From positions 1 to 64,000 of the forward strand of contig JAGQOH010000007.1 in the NCBI GenBank assembly GCA_020427635.1: 64,000 bases of DNA, written 5' to 3'. A model generated the notes under the pieces. It made no database searches. It was given only the letters and a program-made list of their open reading frames with translations, and had not been told where the DNA came from. The stretch is from Phycisphaerales bacterium. Lineage in GTDB: Bacteria > Planctomycetota > Phycisphaerae > Phycisphaerales > UBA1924. Below, piece after piece: positions 51,711-64,000 of this stretch (positions within the stretch are counted from its first letter, which is position 1; each line of letters opens with the position of its first letter). The translations under genes and the position numbers were made by a program.

Positions 51711-52106
51711 TCACTCCACGAACGCAAGCACTTCGCCACCAATGCGCTTCTCGCGGCACTGGCGATCTGACATCACTCCGTGCGAGGTCGAAACGATCGC
51801 AATACCCAAGCCCTGCATCGGACGGGACAGATCGTCAACCTTCTTGTACACCCGGCAACCGGGCTTCGACACCCGATCAAGACGATGCAGCACCGTCTCG
51901 CCACGAGGACCATACTTCAGCTTCACGCGGATCAGGCCCTGACGACCATCCTCCACAACATCAAATCCGTTGATGTAGCCCTCGCTCTGCAAAATCTCCG
52001 CAACGCCGCGGCAGACCTTGCTGTTCAGGCACTTCACTTCCTTCTGCTCATTCCGCGCCGCATTGCGGATGCGAGTGAGCATGTCAGCAATCGTGTCATT
52101 CACCAT
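51711..52106 (-). CDS. rpsH: 30S ribosomal protein S8
   Basis: 131 residues; VNDTIADMLTRIRNAARNEQ and the C-terminal GLGIAIVSTSHGVMSDRQCR. GTG or ATG region overlaps the rpsN stop. Confidence 0.98.
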   Translation of the reverse strand: MVNDTIADMLTRIRNAARNEQKEVKCLNSKVCRGVAEILQSEGYINGFDVVEDGRQGLIRVKLKYGPRGETVLHRLDRVSKPGCRVYKKVDDLSRPMQGLGIAIVSTSHGVMSDRQCREKRIGGEVLAFVE

Positions 52107-52291
52107 TACCAGCTCGCCTTCCGCATACCGGGGATCTTCCCTTCCAACGCCAGCTTCCGCAGCATGATGCGAGAGATCCGGAACTTGCGATACACGCCAC
52201 GCGAACGCCCTGTCAACTCACACCGACGGACGGTGCGCGTCATGTACTTCGGCGTCTGCCGCGTCTTTGCCATCTGTGCCTTCGTCGTCAC
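52106..52291 (-). CDS. rpsN: 30S ribosomal protein S14 (short type), zinc ligands lost
   Basis: 61 residues from the GTG at 52291 (GTGA overlap with the rplE stop); an ATG at 52273 with AAGG upstream would give 55 residues. [16 protein letters not shown] and IPGMRKASW match the short (zinc-type) S14, but of the CxxC...CxxC ligands only Cys24 remains: CELT, then SRIM in place of CRIC. Confidence 0.96.
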
Positions 52292-52911
52292 TTCTTCTTC
52301 TCCTCCCGGCGGAACGGGAAGCCCAGCTCTTCGAGCACGAACCGGCTCATCTTCGGGTCTGAATTCTTGAACACCAGGTTCACGTGCATCCCATGCGTGA
52401 ACGTTGCCTTCGCCATGTCGATCTCCGGGAATACGCCCTGCTCAGTCAAGCCAAGCGAGTAGCTCCCTCCCTTGTCGAACGCCTTCTCGTTCATGCCGCG
52501 AAAGTCCTTGATGCGCGGCATCGCCAGATTGATCAGGCGATCAAGGAAATGCCACATGCGATCCTGACGCAACGTCACCATCGCAGATGTCTCGTATCCC
52601 TCGCGAACCTTGAAGTTCGACACTGAACGCTTCGCCTTGATCACCACAGGCCTCTGCCCGGTGATCGTCTTCAGAGAACTCAACACCGTCTCCTTCACGT
52701 TGGCCGGCAACTTCGTGCCCTCCAAGTGACGACCCATGTTGATGTTCACCACGATCTTGTCCAGCTTCGGGCGGCTCATCGGGTTCTTCTTCCCGAACGC
52801 CTCGCCAAGCTTGGGCGAGATCTCGCTCTTGAAACGCTCGCGCAGACGCGGCGGCGGACCCGGCTCGGCCACCGCGGCGCCACCCTTGTTGTCTTTGTCC
52901 TTCGCCATCAT
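52288..52911 (-). CDS. rplE: 50S ribosomal protein L5
   Basis: 207 residues with a N-terminal extension of about 20; [57 protein letters not shown] and [16 protein letters not shown]. Confidence 0.98.
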
Positions 52912-52932
52912 TGCTCTCCGCGATCCTCGCCC

Positions 52933-53277
52933 TTACTTGCTCTTCCGCGCCTTGCGCAGCACGTGCAGCTCCGCCCCGTTCCGCGCCGCAACACGCACCT
53001 TCGAACCATCCGCCTTCTTCTGGAAACGCACACGCGTCGGCTTCCCGTCCACCACCGGGCTCACGTTCGAGATGTGGAAACTCCGGTCCACCTCGACCTG
53101 ACCGCCCTGCGGATTGATCCGCGTCGGCTTCAAGTTCTTCTTGATCCCATCGATCTGTGCGCTATGCACCACCACACGCTCCGCGTCGTGCAACACACGC
53201 ACCACCGTTCCCGTCACACCGCGGTACTTGCCCGCCGTGATCATTACCTGGTCATCCTTGCGAACATGGCATGGCAT
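52933..53277 (-). CDS. rplX: 50S ribosomal protein L24
   Basis: 114 residues; HVRKDDQVMITAGKYRGVTG and QGGQVEVDRSFHISNVSPVV. One base separates its start from the rplN stop. Confidence 0.97.
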   Translation of the reverse strand: MPCHVRKDDQVMITAGKYRGVTGTVVRVLHDAERVVVHSAQIDGIKKNLKPTRINPQGGQVEVDRSFHISNVSPVVDGKPTRVRFQKKADGSKVRVAARNGAELHVLRKARKSK

Positions 53278-53278
53278 C

Positions 53279-53665
53279 TCAGATCACCTCCGAGGCAAGC
53301 GACACAATCTTCATGTACCCCTTGTCGCGCAGCTCACGGGCCACCGCCCCGAAAATACGCGTCCCACGCGGGTTCCCGTCAGGTTGAATCAGCACCACCG
53401 CGCTCTTGTCGAAACGCACATATGAGCCGTCAGGCCGACGCGTCGCCTTCGCCGTGCGCACGACAACCGCCTTCACCACATCGCCCGCCTTCACATCCGC
53501 GCCCGGCAATGCCTTCTTCACCGAGCACACCACGCGATCGCCCACACCCGCCGTGCGGCGCTTGAATCCCTTACGCGGGGTCGAACCCCCGAGCACACGG
53601 ATCACATAAGCGATTTTCGCGCCCGAGTTGTCGGCGACTTCGCACCTTGATTCAGCTTGCAACAT
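53279..53665 (-). CDS. rplN: 50S ribosomal protein L14
   Basis: 128 residues; [20 protein letters not shown] and [21 protein letters not shown] few extra residues ([14 protein letters not shown] region). Confidence 0.98.
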
Positions 53666-53721
53666 CTGCCATCACCTCCCCGCCAAACCAGCTCCCGCTG
53701 GGGCGGCGAACTCCAACACAT

Positions 53722-54003
53722 TCAACCTTCGCGCATCGACACTTCTTCGGGCGCCCGCTCGACCACACGGACCAACCGCCAGGACTTGGTCTTCGAAATG
53801 GGCCGGCACTCTTCGATCTCAACCTTGTCACCCATACGGGCGTCGTTCTTCTCATCGTGCACATGCAACACCGTGCGCTGACGCAGATACTTGCCGTACT
53901 TCGGATGCTTCGCCAGGAACTGCACCTCCACCTTGCGCGTCTTGTCACGCTTGTCAGAGGTCACCACGCCCGTGCGCATCGGAATGTCCTTCTTTTCCGC
54001 CAT
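53722..54003 (-). CDS. rpsQ: 30S ribosomal protein S17
   Basis: 93 residues; [40 protein letters not shown] and [18 protein letters not shown]. Starts at TAATG overlap with the rpmC stop. Confidence 0.97.
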
Positions 54004-54209
54004 TACGCCCGCTCCTCGGCGGCAATCAGCCGCGCCGTCTGCTCAGTCTTGAGCCGGGCAATGTCCCGGCGAATCTTCTTGAACTGCGAAGGATCCTCGA
54101 TCTTGTCCGTCACCACCTGGCAACGCAGGTCGAACATCTTCTTGCTCAGGCGATCGAGCTCGACGAGGATCTCTTCGTCATTCAGCTTGTGAACTTCCTT
54201 GGCCTTCAC
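54003..54209 (-). CDS. rpmC: 50S ribosomal protein L29
   Basis: 68 residues from the GTG at 54209, which has AGGAG eight bases upstream; the ORF can be read from 54254 but that overlaps rpl[21 protein letters not shown] and [18 protein letters not shown]. Confidence 0.95.
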
Positions 54210-54228
54210 GTCTCGAACTCCTGATTGC

Positions 54229-54648
54229 TTACGCCGACAAACGCCGACCAACAAACCTGCACTTCACCGGAAACTTCCGCGCCACACGCGCCATCGCGTT
54301 CCGCGCCACTTCCTCGGGCACGCCCGCGATCTCGAACAGCATCGTCCCGGGCTTCACACGCGCCGCCCAATACTCAACATCCGCCTTGCCCTTACCCATG
54401 CGCTGCTCGAGCGGCTTCTTCGAAATGGGCTTGTTCGGGAACACGCGGATGAACACCTTGCCCTGACGCTTCAGATAGTGCTGGGCTGCAATACGCCCCG
54501 CCTCGATCTGACGCCCCGTCATCCAGCAGCCTTCCAGCGCCTGAAGCCCGAACTCGCCATACGCGACATAGTTGCCCTTCGTCGCCTTGCGATCGCGGAC
54601 ACGCCGGAACTCCTTGCGAAACTTCACTCGTTTGGGCATCAGCGCCAT
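54229..54648 (-). CDS. rplP: 50S ribosomal protein L16
   Basis: 139 residues; PKRVKFRKEFRRVRDRKATK, EAGRIAAQHYLKRQGKVFIR and GKGKADVEYWAARVKPGTML. GGAG lies seven bases before the ATG. Confidence 0.98.
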   Translation of the reverse strand: MALMPKRVKFRKEFRRVRDRKATKGNYVAYGEFGLQALEGCWMTGRQIEAGRIAAQHYLKRQGKVFIRVFPNKPISKKPLEQRMGKGKADVEYWAARVKPGTMLFEIAGVPEEVARNAMARVARKFPVKCRFVGRRLSA

Positions 54649-54709
54649 GACGCTTCTCCTGCTCGCTCAAACACGATTCAACAACAATCAAACAACCGCA
54701 AAGTCCCAA

Positions 54710-55420
54710 TCAACGACGACCTCGTGCTCGCGGACGCGCGCCCGCCGCCGTCGACTCTCCCTCCGCCGGGGTCGGCGCAGGCTCGTCATACATCCCGCGA
54801 TAGATCCACACCTTCACGCCGATCGATCCGTACGTCGTGAACGACTCGGCAAATCCATAGTCAATGTCCGCCTGCAAAGAGCTCAACGGCATGGAACCCA
54901 TGCGGTTGTCCAGCGTGCGGCTCATTTCCGCACCGCCCAAACGACCCGCAAGCAGAATGCGCACGCCCTTCGCGCCCGCCTGCATGCACGCCTCCGAACG
55001 CATCTTCACGATCCGCCGGAAGCTCGCACGCTTCTTCAACTGTTCCGCGATCCCCTCCGCAACCAGCTGCGCTTCCATGTCCGGGTTCTTGATCTCGATG
55101 ATCGAAATCGAAACCTTGCGCCCCGTCATGTACTGCAACTCTTCCGTCAGGCGATCAACCTCCGCGCCCTTCGGACCAATCACCAAACCCGGACGAGCCG
55201 TCTTGATGATCACCTTCAATTCCTCGCGCGTCCGCTCGATGTGAATGTCGCTCACCGCGGCAAACGGTGGCGTGCGATTCAATCGCTTGTCCACGAACTT
55301 GCGGATCTTGTAGTCCTCGACGAGCAACTCGCCATACAGCGCCTTCGGGGCATACCAACGCGAGCGATGCGCCTCAGTGATCCCCACGCGGTATCCGAAT
55401 GGATGAACTTTCTGTCCCAT
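54710..55420 (-). CDS. rpsC: 30S ribosomal protein S3
   Basis: 236 residues; GQKVHPFGYRVGITEAHRSR, KH domain PGLVIGPKGAEVDRLTEELQ and GVRILLAGRLGGAEMSRTLD. ATG overlaps the rplV TAA stop (TAATG). Confidence 0.98.
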   Translation of the reverse strand: MGQKVHPFGYRVGITEAHRSRWYAPKALYGELLVEDYKIRKFVDKRLNRTPPFAAVSDIHIERTREELKVIIKTARPGLVIGPKGAEVDRLTEELQYMTGRKVSISIIEIKNPDMEAQLVAEGIAEQLKKRASFRRIVKMRSEACMQAGAKGVRILLAGRLGGAEMSRTLDNRMGSMPLSSLQADIDYGFAESFTTYGSIGVKVWIYRGMYDEPAPTPAEGESTAAGARPRARGRR

Positions 55421-55977
55421 TACGCCCGCTCCTCCACGCTCACGGTGATGTGGCTCGTCTTCTTCTGAATCGGGTGCGCACGCCCACGATCCTTGGGCTG
55501 GAAACGCTTGATGATGACACCCGCATCCGCCGTCGCCTCCGACACATACAGCCGACGCGTGTCCGCCTGCGCCGCCTCGGCATCCGCAATCGCGGCGCCC
55601 AGAACTTTGTTCACCATCTTCGCAGCACGACGCGGCGAGAACGCCAGCAAATGCCGCGCATCATCCACCGACTTCCCGCGGATGAGCTCCACCATCAGCC
55701 CGCTCTTGCGGTCGCTCGAACGTGCAAAACGGTGCATGCTCGTGAAGCGCACGATCGAAGGCACCGTCACGCCCAGCGCCTGCGCCATCGCAGCGATCTC
55801 CACCGCCTTCGGCTTCGGATGAAAACGGCCTTCCATCCAATTCCGCACCTTGCGCTCCGCAAGCACATCGTGCTTCTGACCAGCCCCATCGGGCTTCGGA
55901 AGCACCGCGCCCAGCTCCTGCGAGCCCAAGCCCGCCGCCTTCGCTGCTTGATTGAATCGTTTCGTGTTGATCTTCAC
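55420..55977 (-). CDS. rplV: 50S ribosomal protein L22 with N-terminal XRE-like helix-turn-helix extension
   Basis: 185 residues from the GTG at 55977, which has GAGG eight bases upstream; the longer frame to 56073 enters rpsS. The L22 core begins about residue 79 (SGLMVELIRGKSVDDARHLL, SPRRAAKMVNKVLGAAIADA, RFQPKDRGRAHPIQKKTSHI). Residues 1-78 are extra and resemble a Cro/C1-type fold: AAKAAGLGSQELGAVL (helices 1-2), ERKVRNWMEGRFHPKPKAVE (helix 3 and turn) and IAAMAQALGVTVPSIV (helices 4-5). L22 sits at the peptide exit tunnel; what the extra domain does is unknown. Confidence 0.95.
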   Translation of the reverse strand: MKINTKRFNQAAKAAGLGSQELGAVLPKPDGAGQKHDVLAERKVRNWMEGRFHPKPKAVEIAAMAQALGVTVPSIVRFTSMHRFARSSDRKSGLMVELIRGKSVDDARHLLAFSPRRAAKMVNKVLGAAIADAEAAQADTRRLYVSEATADAGVIIKRFQPKDRGRAHPIQKKTSHITVSVEERA

Positions 55978-56011
55978 GGCTTGTGCCTCATCTGCAAACG
56001 CGATCCCGCGA

Positions 56012-56293
56012 TTACTTCGACTTGATGCCTTCCTTCTTGTTCGTGTGACCGCGGAACGTCCGCGTGAGCGCAAACTCGCCCAGCCGATGCCCCACCATGT
56101 CCTCCGTCACGAACACATCGAGAAACACACGCCCGTTATGCACCTTGAACGTATGCCCGACAAACTCCGGCACGATCACGCAGGCGCGCGACCACGTCTT
56201 GATTGGCTCGGAGCGCCCAGATTCCTTCTGCGTCATCACGCGACGATAGATGCGCTCGTCAACGAATGGACCTTTTTTCAGTGATCGACTCAT
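56012..56293 (-). CDS. rpsS: 30S ribosomal protein S19
   Basis: 93 residues; [40 protein letters not shown] and [19 protein letters not shown]. Confidence 0.98.
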
Positions 56294-56309
56294 CGATGCC
56301 TCCAGAGCC

Positions 56310-57164
56310 TTACTTCAGCTGCCCGTAGCGCTTGGACTTGCGACGACGGATGATCAACTCTTGCGAGAACTGCTTCTTGTTACGCGTCGAACCGCCCTTC
56401 GCCTCCGTGCCGGACTTGCTGACCGGAGCGCGGTTCGTCTTGCTTCGACCTTCGCCACCGCCCAATGGGTGCGCGTGGTGGCTCATCGCCACGCCGCGCG
56501 TCTTTGGACGAATCCCCAGGTGGCGGCTCTTGCCCGCCTTGCCAAGACGCCGCAAGGTGTGGTCCGCATTGCCCACCGTCCCAACCGCAGCCCGGCAATC
56601 AATCGGAATCTTCCGCAATTCGCCCGACGGAAGCACGATCGTCGCGTAGTCGTCTTCCTTGTTCGTCAGACGCGCCGTCACGCCCGCGCTCCGACACAGC
56701 TTGCCACCACTCCCGGGCGAAAGCTCGATGCAGTGAATGTCAAAGCCCGTCGGAATGTGACGCAACCGCATGAACGAACCGGGCGTCGGATCGATCGCCT
56801 CGTCCGAACACACAACCTTGTCACCATCCTTGAGCCCCTTCGGCGCCAGGATGTAACGCTTCACGCCGTCGCTGTACTCGATCAGCGCGATGTGGCACGT
56901 GCGGTTCGGGTCATACTCGATCCCCTTCACCGTGCCCTCGATCCCCACGCGATCCGACCGACGGAAGTCGATCTTGCGATACAGACGCTTGTGCCCGCCG
57001 CCGCGGCCGCGCACCGTGATCTTGCCCTGGTTGTTGCGACCGTTCGTGCGCCGCTTGGGCTCGACCAATGACTTCTCCGGACGGTTCTTCGTGATCTCGG
57101 CGTTCGTGTTCACCGAGGCGTTGCGCCGCCCAGCACTCGTTGGTTTGAGGATGCGAATCGGCAT
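56310..57164 (-). CDS. rplB: 50S ribosomal protein L2
   Basis: 284 residues; [40 protein letters not shown], peptidyl-transferase-associated [20 protein letters not shown]. Start overlaps the rplW stop (TAATG). Confidence 0.98.
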
Positions 57165-57445
57165 TACAGAATCTCCAACGTGTCATCCGGGTGAATCTTC
57201 ACATACGCACGCTTCGTCACCTTGCCCGCAACAGCGCCGTACTTGTAGCGACGATCCTTCGAACGCAGATTCGACGTCGACACGCCCACCACGCGCACCT
57301 TGTACAGCGTCTGGATCGCGTCCTTGATCTCGTCCTTCCGTGCGCTCGGATCGACCTCAAACAAATGCCGATTGAACTCGTTCGACGCGATCGTGCTCTT
57401 CTCAGTCAAAAGCGGCTTCTTAATGATGTGGTGCGGCTGCATCAT
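57164..57445 (-). CDS. rplW: 50S ribosomal protein L23
   Basis: 93 residues; HIIKKPLLTEKSTIASNEFN and RYKYGAVAGKVTKRAYVKIH. ATGA overlap with rplD. Confidence 0.98.
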   Translation of the reverse strand: MMQPHHIIKKPLLTEKSTIASNEFNRHLFEVDPSARKDEIKDAIQTLYKVRVVGVSTSNLRSKDRRYKYGAVAGKVTKRAYVKIHPDDTLEIL

Positions 57446-58167
57446 TCACCCCCTGACTTCTTCGAGCTCTTCTTCTTGCTTGACTTCTTTGTCGCCGCCG
57501 CCTGCGCATTCGGCACGCGGCTGCCCGACTTGTCAGTCTTCGATGACGGACCCGAAAGCCACGCCTCGAGATCGGCCTTCGAAATCACCATGAACCGGTG
57601 ATTCAGCATCTCGAAGCACGTCAACTGCTCCGCGTTGCACACCGTCACGTCTTCGACATTCCGCGCCGCCAAACGAACGTTGTCATTGTCTGGCTTCACC
57701 GCAACAAGACACGAGCGATTCACGCCCAACTTCTCAAGCATCTCCACGACGCTCTTTGTCTTTGGCGCCTTCATCTCGAAGGTGTCCAGCACCTTCACCT
57801 CGTTGTCCAGCAGCTTCGCCAACAGCGCATTGCGATTCGCCTTGCGCTTCATCTTCCGAGGCATCTCGAGGTGATAGTCCTCACGCCCCTTCAGCTTCGC
57901 GTGCGCCATGCTGCCGCCCTTGCGGCCGGGCACACGCGCCGGACCAACACGAGAATTGCCCGTCCCCTTTTGCTTGTACAGCTTCCGCGTCGAGCCCTCG
58001 ACCATCGAACGAGTCTTCGTCCGCGCAGAGCCCTGGCGGGTGTTCGCGTGATACATCACGAACGCCTGCTTCAGCAGCGCAGGGTTCACCTCGCCGCCAA
58101 GCGACTGTTCATCGACGGTCATCGTCCCTGCAGACTTCCCGTCCATCTTGAATACGGGGATTTCCAT
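57442..58167 (-). CDS. rplD: 50S ribosomal protein L4
   Basis: 241 residues from the ATG at 58167 (AGGGAAAG upstream); an upstream ATG at 58209 is possible. MEIPVFKMDGKSAGTMTVDE, NTRQGSARTKTRSMVEGSTR and KQKGTGNSRVGPARVPGRKG. C-terminal Ser/Lys-rich tail (KKSSKKKSSKKSGG). Confidence 0.97.
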   Translation of the reverse strand: MEIPVFKMDGKSAGTMTVDEQSLGGEVNPALLKQAFVMYHANTRQGSARTKTRSMVEGSTRKLYKQKGTGNSRVGPARVPGRKGGSMAHAKLKGREDYHLEMPRKMKRKANRNALLAKLLDNEVKVLDTFEMKAPKTKSVVEMLEKLGVNRSCLVAVKPDNDNVRLAARNVEDVTVCNAEQLTCFEMLNHRFMVISKADLEAWLSGPSSKTDKSGSRVPNAQAAATKKSSKKKSSKKSGGE

Positions 58168-58382
58168 TTCACTTTCCCTGCCCGAGCTCCGGGCCATGAA
58201 ATCCACCACACCGCCTCACGAGTGCGACCTTCGCACCCTCTCGCCTCGCCCGATCGCAACCGGGGTCAACTCGGCGGCCTCACACACTTGTCCTTGCCCG
58301 ACGGTTCCGCTTCACCGGCCTGCCGGACCGACGGGAAACGCGCTGTCCCGCCGCAATCCTCAATCAACAACAAAGACGCACG

Positions 58383-59081
58383 CTACGCGCCGAGCGCCTC
58401 CTTCTGCTTCACACCCTTGCTCTTGTACAGGCGACGCCCTTCGCGCACCTCCACAAGACCCATGTCTGCGCCGGGAACCGGACCCTTCACCAGGATCAGC
58501 CCCTGCTCTTTGTCGATCTTCACCACAGACAACGAACGCACCGTGACACGCTCATCACCCATGTGTCCCGCCATCCGCTTGCCCTTCTTGGGCTTCGGAC
58601 CCGTACCGCGGTTTGTCGCATGCGCCGCGATCGAACCAGGCGAACGGTGCTTCCGCTCCGTGCCGTGCGTCGCAGGCTGGCCGCCGAAGTTGTGGCGCTT
58701 CATACCGCCCTGGTAGCCCTTGCCCTTGCTCGTCCCGATCACGTCCACGAACGCGCACTTCTCAAACATCGAAACGTCAAGCGTCTGCCCAAGCTCAAAC
58801 GCGGGCAACTCCATCTTCGACTCCGCCGGCTTGAACTCACGATGGTGCCGCTTCGGCGCCGTGTTCGCCTTCGCATCATGCCCAATGATCGGCATCGTGG
58901 AATTGCGCGGCTTCAACTCGCCATAGCCAATCTGCACCGCGTCATACCCGTCGACGTCTTGCGTCTTCACCTGCGTCACAACGCAAGGACCAAGCGCAAT
59001 CACCGTCACAGGCACGGAGACACCATCGTCGTTGTAGACGCGGGTCATCCCGAGCTTGGTTCCAAGGAGCGAAAGGCTCAT
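58383..59081 (-). CDS. rplC: 50S ribosomal protein L3
   Basis: 232 residues from the ATG at 59081 (AAGGGG six bases upstream). SLLGTKLGMTRVYNDDGVSV, the conserved GKGYQGGMKRHNFGGQPATH and GRRLYKSKGVKQ. A 215-nt gap with no feature follows before rplD. Confidence 0.97.
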   Translation of the reverse strand: MSLSLLGTKLGMTRVYNDDGVSVPVTVIALGPCVVTQVKTQDVDGYDAVQIGYGELKPRNSTMPIIGHDAKANTAPKRHHREFKPAESKMELPAFELGQTLDVSMFEKCAFVDVIGTSKGKGYQGGMKRHNFGGQPATHGTERKHRSPGSIAAHATNRGTGPKPKKGKRMAGHMGDERVTVRSLSVVKIDKEQGLILVKGPVPGADMGLVEVREGRRLYKSKGVKQKEALGA

Positions 59082-59223
59082 CACAATCCCCTTCATCCCG
59101 ACGCCTGCCGGGCCGGCTCATCCGCCTGGCGGAGAGGAGCACTTACTTGGGCAGGCCAAACCATTTGGCCCGCAAACGAAAGCGACCGGCTGCTTTGCTC
59201 AGCAACCGGTCGCGAATACTTTC

Positions 59224-59532
59224 CTACGCCTTGATCTTCACAAAGACGCCTGCGGGCACAACGAGACGATTCAGCGCCTCCACAGTCCGCGCATTCGCCT
59301 CAGTGATATCAATGATCCGCTTGTGCGTCCGGATCTCAAACTGCTCGCGGCTTTTCTTGTCAATGAACGGCGAACGCAACACCGTGTAACGCTCCTTCCG
59401 CGTCGGCAACGGAATCGGACCAGCAACCTTCGCGCTCGTGCGCTTGGCGTGATCAACGATTTCTTTCGCCGAGGCGTCCAGCGCCTGGTGGTCATACGCT
59501 TCCATACGGATTCGAATCCTGCCACCGCTCAT
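59224..59532 (-). CDS. rpsJ: 30S ribosomal protein S10
   Basis: 102 residues from the ATG at 59532. [39 protein letters not shown] and [15 protein letters not shown]. First gene of the cluster; rpsL, rpsG, fusA and tuf are not upstream. In other bacteria the same protein is also the antitermination factor NusE. Confidence 0.97.
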
Positions 59533-59722
59533 GTGCCTGCGTCTCGCTTCAAGGAACCTTCGAACCATTCATGCACGGCGACACCGACAGATGCCGACGC
59601 GATCGCGGAGCCCAACGCTCCCCACGATTGCCCGACCGATTGGTCCCCCACGCATGACGCAGGGGGCCCGCCACAGTCTGGACCCACCAAAACCGCCCCG
59701 GCAAAACCGGCGCGAGTCGGGG

Positions 59723-59750
59723 AATATAGGCAACTGGCCCGCCCTGTCAA
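59723..59750 (-). promoter_or_regulatory. sigma-70-type promoter of the S10 cluster
   Basis: Minus-strand TTGACA (59750-59745), 16-base spacer, TATATT (59728-59723). Predicted start about 59716 leaves a leader of roughly 185 nt before rpsJ, with a CCGG-type hairpin, room for autoregulation. Best promoter match in the window. Confidence 0.75.
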
Positions 59751-59825
59751 CTTGAGGCCCTTGGAACGCCGATCGCAACGACAGACCTTCGCCCTGCGAA
59801 CCGACCCCTTGAGGGAGCAAACTCC

Positions 59826-61268
59826 ATGAACCGCACCAGAACCACCCACCGTCCCTTCCGCCTGCTTTGCCTGGCAACCCCCCTCCTATTGGGGTGCGTC
59901 CCGGCCGCAGCCCAGTCAGAGCAGCCCCGCCTCGAAGACATCACCGTCTCCCAGCCCCTCATCATCGACGCCCTGGGCGTCACCGTCCTCGTTCCCGAGG
60001 GTGCCACCGCAAACGTCACCTCCCAGCCCGGCGGCAAGACCACCGCCGTCATCAGCGCTCCAGGCGCCCTCCGAGGCTCCAACTGGGTCGTTCAGGTCAC
60101 CAACGAACGCACCGGCGACCTCGCCCTCTCGCTGGATGGCGTCCTCGACGAATTCGCCAAGCAGCGCACCGCCCAGGCCAGAGCCGCCAACAAGCAGTTC
60201 CGAATCTTCGACCGCTTAAACGAATCCGCCAACCTGAAGATCGCCGGCCGCGCCGCCGCTCGCTTCTATTGCGAGCTTTCACCTGGCGAGGGCGACGCCC
60301 TCATGACTGGCTACACCATCTTCTCCCCCAAGGCAGGCGAGTTCGTGATCATGCAGCTCGATTGCCTCAGCTCCAAGTTCGAGACCTCACGCGTCCTCTA
60401 CGAAACAATCGCCGCCAGCACCAAGTTCGAAGACCCGCTCGCCGTCGCCGAGGGCCGCGCAATGGCCTTGATGGCCGGTGCCGAATTCCTCAGCACAATC
60501 ACCGCGGAAGACATGAAGTCCCTGCTGAGTGAGGAACCCCTCTACCTGCGCTACTACATCCCAAGCCGCACAGGCAAGGCCGGCGACGACAACGAAGTCG
60601 CATTCCAGAAAATCCAAATCCGCGATGGCCAAGCAGGCGAACTCGACTTCACCCGTGGTCGTGAGAACTGGTCCGCCGCCGATCGTGAATACGGCTTCCT
60701 GGTCCAAGTCGATGCGCGCGCAATGCAAGCCTCCACCACGATCGACACCCGCGCCATCCACTTCCTCTCACGCGATCGTGCCTACGAAGCTTGGTCGATC
60801 ACCAACACGCTCCGCGACTCCAAGCGATCAACATCCGTGCAACAAACCATGATCCGCCGCGATCGCGCAATGACCGTCAAAACCCTGCGCGAGGGCACGC
60901 CCGCCGAAGTCCGCGATTGGACCCTCCCCGACAAGGGCTACATCTCCGAGGTCGAGCGCTACATGCTCCCGCAACTCGTGGCGCTCAAGAACCCGCAAAG
61001 CTCGCCGGCTCGCCTCGACTTCGCCTTCTTCTCATATGACAGCAAGAACGACAAACTCACCATCCGGCGCGACGAATTCACCAACATTGACATCGATGGC
61101 TGGCGCTACACCTCGCAACCCGAGCGCAGCGAAGCCGAGATCCAAACCATCCTCGATGTCACTGGCAATCTCGTCCGACGCACGCTGGACAGCGGCATCG
61201 TCATCGAGCCGGTCACCCAAGACCGTCTGCGCCGCATCTGGAAGGAAAAAGGACTGCTGATGGAGTAA
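59826..61268 (+). CDS. secreted hypothetical protein, 480 aa
   Basis: GAGGGAG lies before the ATG. Signal peptide PFRLLCLATPLLLGCVPAAA ending in AAAQS; a LGC near cleavage could be a lipobox. Mature protein is alpha/beta (ITVSQPLIIDALGVTVLVPE, DLALSLDGVLDEFAKQRTAQ, GYTIFSPKAGEFVIMQLD) with a C-terminal half of long strands (LDFAFFSYDSKNDKLTIRRD). No family recognised. It is divergent from the S10 cluster. Confidence 0.7.
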   Translation: MNRTRTTHRPFRLLCLATPLLLGCVPAAAQSEQPRLEDITVSQPLIIDALGVTVLVPEGATANVTSQPGGKTTAVISAPGALRGSNWVVQVTNERTGDLALSLDGVLDEFAKQRTAQARAANKQFRIFDRLNESANLKIAGRAAARFYCELSPGEGDALMTGYTIFSPKAGEFVIMQLDCLSSKFETSRVLYETIAASTKFEDPLAVAEGRAMALMAGAEFLSTITAEDMKSLLSEEPLYLRYYIPSRTGKAGDDNEVAFQKIQIRDGQAGELDFTRGRENWSAADREYGFLVQVDARAMQASTTIDTRAIHFLSRDRAYEAWSITNTLRDSKRSTSVQQTMIRRDRAMTVKTLREGTPAEVRDWTLPDKGYISEVERYMLPQLVALKNPQSSPARLDFAFFSYDSKNDKLTIRRDEFTNIDIDGWRYTSQPERSEAEIQTILDVTGNLVRRTLDSGIVIEPVTQDRLRRIWKEKGLLME

Positions 61269-61282
61269 GCCAGGCCCCAGGT

Positions 61283-62698
61283 TTAGCCCGGGTCCTCTTC
61301 ACTCATCTCGTCCGCCATATCTTCCGTCTCATCAACCATCGCCCCATCGTCATACGACGCGTCTTCGCCCATCTCGGCGCTTGCGTCGTCGTAGTCAGAA
61401 GCGTCGTCTTCATGGGCCGCTGCTGAGGCCGCCGGGTCGATCAGATCGCCCAACTCGCTCACGCGCCCACCCGCCGAGCGGTACGAACTCGAGGCCGACG
61501 AAATCGCCTGCTTCGCCGCGTCCTTGGCCTCCTTCGCCTTCGACCGAATCGCCTTCGCATCAAGCCCGGACACCTTCACGTCAGGCATCCCCTGCAGGCT
61601 TTCCAGCACATCCGCAAGCGAACCCAGCGCCTCGCCCATCCCCCCGTGAATCTCCGCCAGCGCCTGCTGCGCCGCGCCCGACACCATCGCCGCAGGCTGA
61701 CGCAGCGCCGACTGGCCCTTCCGCGCCTCGCCCACCGCCTGGTCATACGCGCTCGTCACCGCGTCATAGCTGGGCGTCGCCCGGTCATTCAGGATCACCT
61801 TTACCGCCGCGAGCGCCTGCGACACCGACTCCGCCGACGCCTTCGCATCACTCAACGCCGCCGTGCGCTGGTCCCCCCAGCCATCATGCGACGCCGCAAT
61901 CCGGTCCCGCGTGTCATCCTGCACCTTGCGCATCCGCGCCAAGGTCGCCACCTCTCGCGCCCGATCCTCCACCGCGCGCGTCACCGTCGCAAGCTCAAGA
62001 CCAATCTCCGACGAACGCTTCTCATGCTGCGCCGCCGCCCGCTCATGCGACACCGCCTGCGAAACCAAATCAAGCCGCATCCGCCCCTCGGCTCGCAAAG
62101 CCTGACTCCGCAGTGCCTGCTCAAACTCGCGCTCCGCCCGCGCGCCCGTGTCTTCCGCGTCCTGCCGCGCCTGGACTTCCGCCTGCATCGCCTCCAGCTC
62201 GTCCAAACCCGACTGCGCGTGCGCCAGCTCAGCATCAAGCTCCTTCGCCCGGGCGTCGATCATCGTGAGCGTCTCGCGCGGATCAAATCCCGCAAGCGAA
62301 TCCGCCACCGCCAACTGCGACCGCAACCGAGCCTCACTCGAGCGCACCAACGTGATCTGGTGCGTCAACGCCGCCAGATCCTCCACATACTCCCCCGCCT
62401 TGATTGACGCCTGCCCAAGCTTCGCACGCGCCATCAGCACATGCGCAACCGCTTGGTTCTCATCCGACGCCCCATCAATGGCGCCGCTCAGGTCTGTGAT
62501 GACACTCTGATAGGTCTTGCTCCGCTGCTCGACCGGCGCCAACGCCCGCCCCGAACCCGAAGACATCGCCATCGCGTGGCTCGCCTTGTCGATCTGCACC
62601 GCAAGCTTGTCGTCCGCACGCTCGCACCCGCCAAGCGCCATCACCGCGCCCGCCGACACCAGCAACATCGCGACCCGAGCCTTCCCCATCTTCTGCAT
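61283..62698 (-). CDS. coiled-coil lipoprotein, 471 aa
   Basis: Start at the ATG at 62698 with AAGGG eight bases upstream. Lipobox in MALGGCERADD. Extended helical/coiled-coil body (LRSQLAVADSLAGFDPRETL, AKELDAELAHAQSGLDELEA) and a very acidic Asp/Glu-rich end (DYDDASAEMGEDASYDDGAM). No family recognised. Follows on the same strand as the next gene upstream. Confidence 0.7.
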   Translation of the reverse strand: MQKMGKARVAMLLVSAGAVMALGGCERADDKLAVQIDKASHAMAMSSGSGRALAPVEQRSKTYQSVITDLSGAIDGASDENQAVAHVLMARAKLGQASIKAGEYVEDLAALTHQITLVRSSEARLRSQLAVADSLAGFDPRETLTMIDARAKELDAELAHAQSGLDELEAMQAEVQARQDAEDTGARAEREFEQALRSQALRAEGRMRLDLVSQAVSHERAAAQHEKRSSEIGLELATVTRAVEDRAREVATLARMRKVQDDTRDRIAASHDGWGDQRTAALSDAKASAESVSQALAAVKVILNDRATPSYDAVTSAYDQAVGEARKGQSALRQPAAMVSGAAQQALAEIHGGMGEALGSLADVLESLQGMPDVKVSGLDAKAIRSKAKEAKDAAKQAISSASSSYRSAGGRVSELGDLIDPAASAAAHEDDASDYDDASAEMGEDASYDDGAMVDETEDMADEMSEEDPG

Positions 62699-62796
62699 CT
62701 GCAATCCCTTCAATCTCCAAGCCGCCCGCAGCCCCGCCGCGAAGCCCAAATCCAAGCGCGCACTATACCAGTGACCATCCAGGGGCCCGTCTCCCC

Positions 62797-64000
62797 CTAC
62801 CGTTCGCCCTCCGTCGCAGACGGTTCCGCCCCACTCGGCTCCAACGGCCCTTCCAGTGCCTTCGGGTCATCCGCCCTGCGCTCCCCAGGCGGGACGTACT
62901 CAATCGGATACGCCGGATGAGGCCGGTACATCGAACGAATCCACTCGATCGCCCGCTGATACCCCTCGTCCTCGCGCGACCGAAACACCGGCCGCCAACC
63001 GCGCACCTTCGGATGCTGATACAGCGCATCCGCCTGCGGCAACCCCATCTGCATCAACGCCGATCGCTCCGGCGCCTCATACGCAATCATCGGAGCCCCC
63101 ATCGACGTCCGGAAACGATCAAGGATCAGGAAATTCGTATAGACCGTCTCCTCCGAGCGCGGACGGCGATTGATCAGCATCAGCTTCCCCGCATCCGCAC
63201 CCCCATGACACTGCGTCGTCCCGCACCGATTCACCAACCAACCCGCGTGGACATCGTCCCGAAACATCGCCATCGATGCCGGTTGACCAACCACCTCCAC
63301 ATCCCCATACAAATCCCGCGCACCCACCTGGAACATGATGCTCAGAATGTCCGCCGCGGGCTTCCGCCGAAATGCCTCCCGACCGTCGCGCGTCACGGGC
63401 ACCAAGGGATGCTCCGCGTAATCCTGCAAGAACCGATCAATCACGTTGCGCTTGATGATCAAGTTGGGCGATTCATCAAGATCAATCTCATACACCTTGA
63501 TCAGGTTGATCTCCGATGGCGAGAGCAACCCAAAGTCCCGGGCCGTCAACCGCCGACGCTCTGGCTCCTGCTTCGGCGTGGCCGTTGGCTTGGCGCCTGG
63601 CGCAGGCGACGGCGCCGTCCGCTTGTCCTTCAGCGCCTTCAGCTGCGCGAGTGTCTTGCGCAGCGCGCGCGCATCACCATTGAAGGGCTCCTGCTTCTGA
63701 ATCCCATCAAGCTCCGCAAGCGCCTCGTCATACATCTGACGCTCCGCAAGCCAATGCACAAGCGAAATGAGCCGCGTCACGTCATCATCGCGAATCTGCT
63801 TGCGCAGCTCGACATACTGCTCAAAATCATCCCCCACCACCTCGAGCCGCACCACCTGCAAGTTGTCGATCGACGTCTCCACGCCCGCAATCGTCAACAC
63901 CACGAACTCAACATCTTCTCGGACGAAGTCGCCCTCCAAACGCGTGCCGTTATTGAGCGTCACACGCACCCGATCGCCAACCGCTGGCAGCACCACCGCG
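62797..64000 (-). CDS. hypothetical protein with C-x4-CH motif, N-terminus outside window
   Basis: Open to the right edge, so the true start is unseen. The N-terminal part resembles a small beta-barrel (RVRVTLNNGTRLEGDFVRED), then helices, a Pro/Lys-rich linker (TAPSPAPGAKPTATPKQEP) and a C-terminal domain with VNRCGTTQCHGGADAGKL. The CGTTQCH could attach haem c (C-x4-CH, a spaced form of CxxCH), as in planctomycete cytochrome-like proteins; it could also be a metal site. Confidence 0.65.
   Translation of the reverse strand, partial: AVVLPAVGDRVRVTLNNGTRLEGDFVREDVEFVVLTIAGVETSIDNLQVVRLEVVGDDFEQYVELRKQIRDDDVTRLISLVHWLAERQMYDEALAELDGIQKQEPFNGDARALRKTLAQLKALKDKRTAPSPAPGAKPTATPKQEPERRRLTARDFGLLSPSEINLIKVYEIDLDESPNLIIKRNVIDRFLQDYAEHPLVPVTRDGREAFRRKPAADILSIMFQVGARDLYGDVEVVGQPASMAMFRDDVHAGWLVNRCGTTQCHGGADAGKLMLINRRPRSEETVYTNFLILDRFRTSMGAPMIAYEAPERSALMQMGLPQADALYQHPKVRGWRPVFRSREDEGYQRAIEWIRSMYRPHPAYPIEYVPPGERRADDPKALEGPLEPSGAEPSATEGER

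Follow-up and report, generated by a model that had tools for sequence, protein, structure and literature searches.

Organization of the rplV locus

The gene for ribosomal protein L22 (rplV) in the window, by which we mean the whole stretch of 64,000 nucleotides analysed here, starts with a GTG at position 55977 and its stop codon ends at 55420. It is present in a single copy in the source genome and is flanked by the genes for S19 and S3 in an ordinary S10 operon. Both Pfam (PF00237, residues 81–181, 102.9 bits against a cut-off of 28) and TIGR01044 (98.3 bits against a cut-off of 73.65) recognize the product as L22. A preliminary description of this DNA had chosen the GTG start with GAGG eight bases upstream, which the sequence confirms, and had placed the beginning of the L22 core near residue 79, in agreement with the Pfam boundary and with the first strand of our structural model at residue 76. 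The features of the locus are as follows.

56012–56293, minus strand: rpsS (S19), upstream of L22 in the S10 operon
55986–55989, minus strand: Shine-Dalgarno motif GAGG, with an 8-base spacer to the GTG (sequence; group Shine-Dalgarno test)
55420–55977, minus strand: rplV, L22 with an N-terminal predicted XRE domain, 185 residues, GTG start (Pfam Ribosomal_L22, E=1.3e-29)
55744–55977, minus strand: predicted XRE domain, helices at residues 5–15, 19–24, 34–48 and 58–68 (Pfam matches of relatives, AlphaFold2, Foldseek)
55834–55878, minus strand: predicted recognition-type helix 3, residues 34–48, with a conserved R45-N46-W47 motif (alignment, model)
55801–55833, minus strand: loop between helices 3 and 4 and start of helix 4, residues 49–59 (alignment)
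55423–55752, minus strand: L22 core, residues 76–185 (Pfam, model, PDB search)
54710–55420, minus strand: rpsC (S3), downstream of L22

Predicted fold of the N-terminal extension

Taken alone, the window L22 gives only sub-threshold Pfam matches to helix-turn-helix (HTH) families (HTH_31, E=0.13; HTH_6, E=0.02). Extended L22 proteins are, however, conserved in more than 100 sequences, and we collected related L22s from the window's family, order and class and aligned them. Among 43 related domains, 22 matched HTH_31 (best 2.9e-8), 10 matched HTH_26 (best 3.8e-7) and 6 matched HTH_3 (best 1.5e-5). These family-wide matches settle the HTH identity of the extension despite the weakness of the window copy.

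AlphaFold2 modelled the whole protein with a pLDDT of 95.3 and a pTM of 0.86 from a 70-sequence alignment. When the whole model was compared with the PDB, the 50 matches listed were all ribosome and L22 entries, and the XRE domain was therefore modelled separately (pLDDT 94.6, pTM 0.82). The models predict the four- to five-helix arrangement of the Cro/C1 superfamily, with helix 3 as the recognition helix, and they place a linker of about one residue between the domain and the first strand of L22, with a pLDDT of about 97 across the junction. The predicted helices agree with those assigned in the preliminary description; helices 2 and 3 are separated by a turn of about nine residues, which exceeds that of classical XRE domains and differs in length by family.

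When the domain model was compared with the PDB using Foldseek, mostly XRE domains were matched, including those of P22 c2 (probability 1.00, target TM 0.74, E=0.046), C.Csp231I, CapH, SinR, the 434 repressor, DdrO and HipB; the XRE-like part of the enzymes HppE and HEPD was also among the top matches. Probabilities were near 1 overall and target-normalised TM scores reached 0.77 for small repressors, while E-values were at least 0.046, as is expected of a query of 79 residues. Searching for solved homologues by sequence yielded nothing beyond weak TniQ matches (E=0.016). The preliminary description had read a Cro/C1 HTH at the N-terminus of L22 and had suggested comparing its predicted structure with XRE and SinR folds; the Pfam matches of relatives, AlphaFold2 and Foldseek all bear this reading out, and SinR is among the structural matches. 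Judged from the alignments and models, residues 1 to about 75 are a Cro/C1 (XRE) HTH domain that leads straight into the first β-strand of an ordinary L22.

Translation and selection

Shine-Dalgarno 4-mers precede 44 of 51 extended starts, compared with 37 of 215 internal in-frame start-type codons (Fisher p=1e-20). In close pairs of sequences, dN for the XRE domain is far below dS, if less so than in the L22 core. The domain is the faster evolving part of the protein (mean pairwise identity 40%, against 57% for the core), and Trp47 and Pro54 are invariant in all 36 full-length proteins. By these comparisons the XRE domain is under purifying selection, and from this together with the Shine-Dalgarno motifs we infer that it is translated as part of L22. 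Chance long open frames in GC-rich DNA, and the several non-carrier L22 frames that are open far upstream yet lack the domain, might suggest an annotation artefact in which translation begins at the L22 core and the upstream frame is silent, but with protein-level conservation at low dN/dS and the ribosome-binding motifs at the extended starts we regard this explanation as hardly credible.

Two sequences in the set are unusual. In one f94 genome (L049, G336) the start of the XRE domain is scrambled before the FRNW motif, suggesting a frameshift in the gene or in the assembly, and one carrier of family f5 (L262, G546) has larger loop insertions in the XRE domain within a 202-residue frame.

Distribution and origin of the fusion

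We surveyed 248 genomes of the class with a full-length profile and detected L22 in 234. The extension, recognized by alignment from its first residues, is present in 61 of these, about a quarter; the remaining L22 proteins align from profile position ~60–74, and the few non-carrier alignments that reach further do so only over stop codons or unrelated upstream sequence. Two candidates for a vestigial domain were inspected by eye and rejected: in L246 (f96) the upstream sequence is unrelated to XRE, and in L255 (f107) the frame opens just one codon ahead of the L22 start.

The families examined are all-or-none for the extension. In the tree set, it is carried by every member of f1 (12/12), f94 (6/6), f5 (4/4), f6 (3/3), f7 (11/11), f108 (9/9), f109 (3/3) and f111 (1/1). 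Families f1 and f94 belong to the window's order, whose other families f2, f3, f4 and f93 contained no carriers, nor did the other families sampled. A domain profile run against 392 genomes of the phylum found no L22 carriers outside Phycisphaerae and no second copy of the XRE domain in carriers; the weak matches outside the class (E 9e-7 and weaker) are other proteins, judging by frame length. The same fusion, which the preliminary description had proposed to look for across Planctomycetota, recurs in Phycisphaerae and in none of the other classes sampled. In a scan of named genomes, the best 80 loci all carry the extension by our extraction, and nearly all of them come from Phycisphaerales or Phycisphaerae MAGs. 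Two public entries (L108 and L156), one entitled Leptolyngbya sp. PLA1 and the other Vicinamibacteraceae bacterium PLA1, hold a Phycisphaerales-type L22, and their titles look mislabelled.

Mapped onto a tree of S3, S19, L2 and L16, the distribution requires three state changes. All families of the window's order group together in the L22-core tree, and the core has therefore been inherited vertically. The XRE-domain tree separates f1, f94 and the remaining carriers (supports 94, 94 and 86). As the domain tree follows the lineages, these sequence-based trees fit a single old fusion with later losses, the simplest interpretation; the XRE domain may instead have spread separately, as the deep branches lack resolution.

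Other ribosomal proteins also vary across these genomes. The uL24 protein (window 52933–53277; relatives L340, L342, L343, L346 and L353) has a C-terminal extension of ~45–70 residues in f94 and in some f1 genomes, which is absent from the window genome and from f2–f4, and the Lys/Ser-rich C-terminal tail of uL4 (window 57442–58209) is longer in the window's family than in f2–f4. We also considered loss of bL32, a neighbour of L22, and rejected it, bL32 being present in 29 of 29 genomes. The bL32 of the source genome (G000:C105:5957-6097, outside the window) is divergent, as it is in most of f1, where seven of nine score 30–44 bits against 53–72 elsewhere; the other carrier families are not divergent.

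A candidate binding face

The XRE domain carries a mean net charge of +4.8. Lys or Arg occupies residues 45, 55 and 57 in 69–78% of sequences and residue 51 in 53%, and Asn46 is found in 50 of 51 domains. In the window protein, residues 49–59 form a conserved positive patch in which R51, H53, K55 and K57 are basic and P54 is the invariant proline. The conserved positive residues (R45, R51, H53, R/K55 and K57) lie close together beside Asn46, where helix 3 ends and in the loop between helices 3 and 4. By comparison with the 434 and P22 repressors, we take this region to be the nucleic-acid face of the domain. Conserved Trp, Pro, Leu and Ala residues may serve the fold rather than a ligand.

Proposed role in the large subunit

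The domain exists, is predicted to adopt the XRE fold and is fixed within whole families. According to published work, uL22 joins the subunit early in assembly, at a site on the solvent side adjacent to bL32 (PMC11723945), contacts both bL32 and bL17 (PMC4881015), and is one of the proteins forming the exit tunnel and vestibule (PMC13338714, PMC8556260). A precedent for an HTH domain on the ribosome comes from EDF1/Mbf1, whose HTH sits between h16 and h33 of 18S rRNA (PMC7486125).

The conserved basic face, the location of uL22 and the EDF1/Mbf1 precedent lead us to favour, at about an even chance of being correct, a permanent clamp or brace on 23S rRNA, held as a fixed structural part on the solvent side of the 50S subunit. 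L22 would bind early in 50S assembly, as usual, and its N-terminus would present the XRE domain on the solvent side, beside bL32 and bL17. The domain would be rigidly held, because its last helix is predicted to run directly into the first strand of L22, and the face formed by helix 3 and the basic loop between helices 3 and 4, with which repressors hold DNA, would grip 23S rRNA nearby or an adjacent ribosomal protein. In this way the domain would act near the tunnel exit as a lineage-specific brace or clamp, aiding assembly or stability. That the domain is present in all the genomes examined from eight families, and is under purifying selection, fits a constitutive part of the ribosome; its presence in the mature particle, rRNA as its ligand and the docking site are what we infer. 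Since the domain evolves fast compared with the core and is absent in sister families, it is inessential to 50S structure in general. More tentatively, a repressor-type domain placed permanently beside the exit tunnel might bind a lineage-specific 23S element, or might sense or bind DNA or RNA from outside the ribosome.

The preliminary description had offered three functions: a link between translation and nucleic acids, binding of lineage-specific rRNA, and autoregulation of the operon. By sequence conservation and by analogy, rRNA binding appears to fit best, given the conserved basic patch, the near-invariant Asn and the MBF1/EDF1 precedent. In favour of autoregulation, XRE domains are mostly repressors, and in the E. 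coli S10 operon autoregulation by ribosomal protein L4 is established; unassembled L22 might bind the DNA or mRNA of the S10 leader through its XRE domain and repress its own operon. We analysed the S10 upstream regions of 15 carriers, in which TTGACA-type promoters are recognisable and start codons were assigned automatically, some of them uncertainly. No inverted repeat was shared between any of the 15 regions and no 8-mer was common to more than four of them; several of the most-shared 8-mers come from four genomes of one genus (g2). Short inverted repeats were more numerous than in mononucleotide shuffles (24 versus 14.7, sd 4.2), but none recurs, and no Rfam leader was found in positions 52000–64000 of the window. 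The lack of a shared operator by this crude motif test and of an Rfam leader weakly disfavours autoregulation; XRE repressors are moreover usually dimers, and nothing here speaks for dimerisation, so we consider this function quite improbable.

A somewhat better alternative, though still an unlikely one, is that the XRE domain makes protein-protein contacts and provides a platform on the ribosome surface, close to the tunnel exit, where a lineage-specific factor docks, for example a chaperone or a targeting, hibernation or quality-control protein. The part that uL22 plays in building the exit tunnel and vestibule (PMC13338714, PMC8556260) would suit this role, and the matches to HppE and HEPD illustrate that XRE domains can also be parts of enzymes; against it, no partner gene was identified, and a basic conserved patch is better suited to RNA than to a generic protein partner. 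The fold and its basic patch would also permit DNA binding, through which the domain could tether ribosomes during translation to the chromosomal DNA or the region of a transcribing RNA polymerase, but a monomeric, ribosome-fixed XRE domain is expected to bind DNA weakly, and such a tether seems very unlikely. Slightly less probable again is a neutral passenger without a function of its own, tolerated and retained by chance after an old fusion. Evolution faster than that of the core and the existence of sister families that do without the domain are what a passenger would predict; close pairs in which dN is far lower than dS, residues that never vary and the clean all-or-none pattern (61/234, the two next matches that were checked being explained by unrelated sequence upstream) are not.

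Comparison with known systems

To our knowledge, it is rare in bacteria for a universal ribosomal protein to acquire an entire folded domain. In XRE-L22 a known domain forms a lineage-specific extension of a ribosomal protein; it is fixed in several families, and others lack it, apparently through loss. The preliminary description knew of no function for such a fusion, and as far as the titles and abstracts of the open-access literature indicate, we likewise found no description of one.

Several known proteins share part of this design. XRE-L22 has the predicted fold and helix order of P22 c2, SinR, 434 and C.Csp231I, and differs from them in the greater length of the turn that separates helices 2 and 3, in its fusion to a ribosomal protein, and in having no dimerisation region or operator that we could find. 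HppE and HEPD likewise hold an XRE-like fold inside a protein that is not a repressor, but they are metabolic enzymes. The 'L22/unknown domain fusion protein' family (PRK12279, NF008917) also combines L22 with an additional domain; its extra part is C-terminal, since the L22 core of the window aligns to positions 10–107 of 311, and with 55.2 bits against a cut-off of 526 the window protein is not a member. Extra segments on tunnel-exit proteins are represented by the N-terminal extension of uL24 in archaea and eukaryotes (PMC13338714). Such lineage-fixed extensions are similar in kind, whereas that of XRE-L22 is predicted to be a complete, independently folding, repressor-type domain.

The closest parallel is MBF1/EDF1 of eukaryotes and archaea, likewise a ribosome-binding Cro/C1-type HTH, which contacts rRNA in EDF1/Mbf1 (PMC7486125) and is stated to be absent from bacteria. 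MBF1/EDF1 is a separate stress factor of the small subunit, whereas the domain described here is covalently built into a protein of the large subunit; by Pfam and AlphaFold2, the residues before the L22 core comprise one XRE domain only, with neither an MBF1 domain nor a zinc ribbon. XRE-L22 can thus be thought of as a natural experiment in recruiting a transcription-factor fold to the ribosome, parallel to that of MBF1/EDF1.
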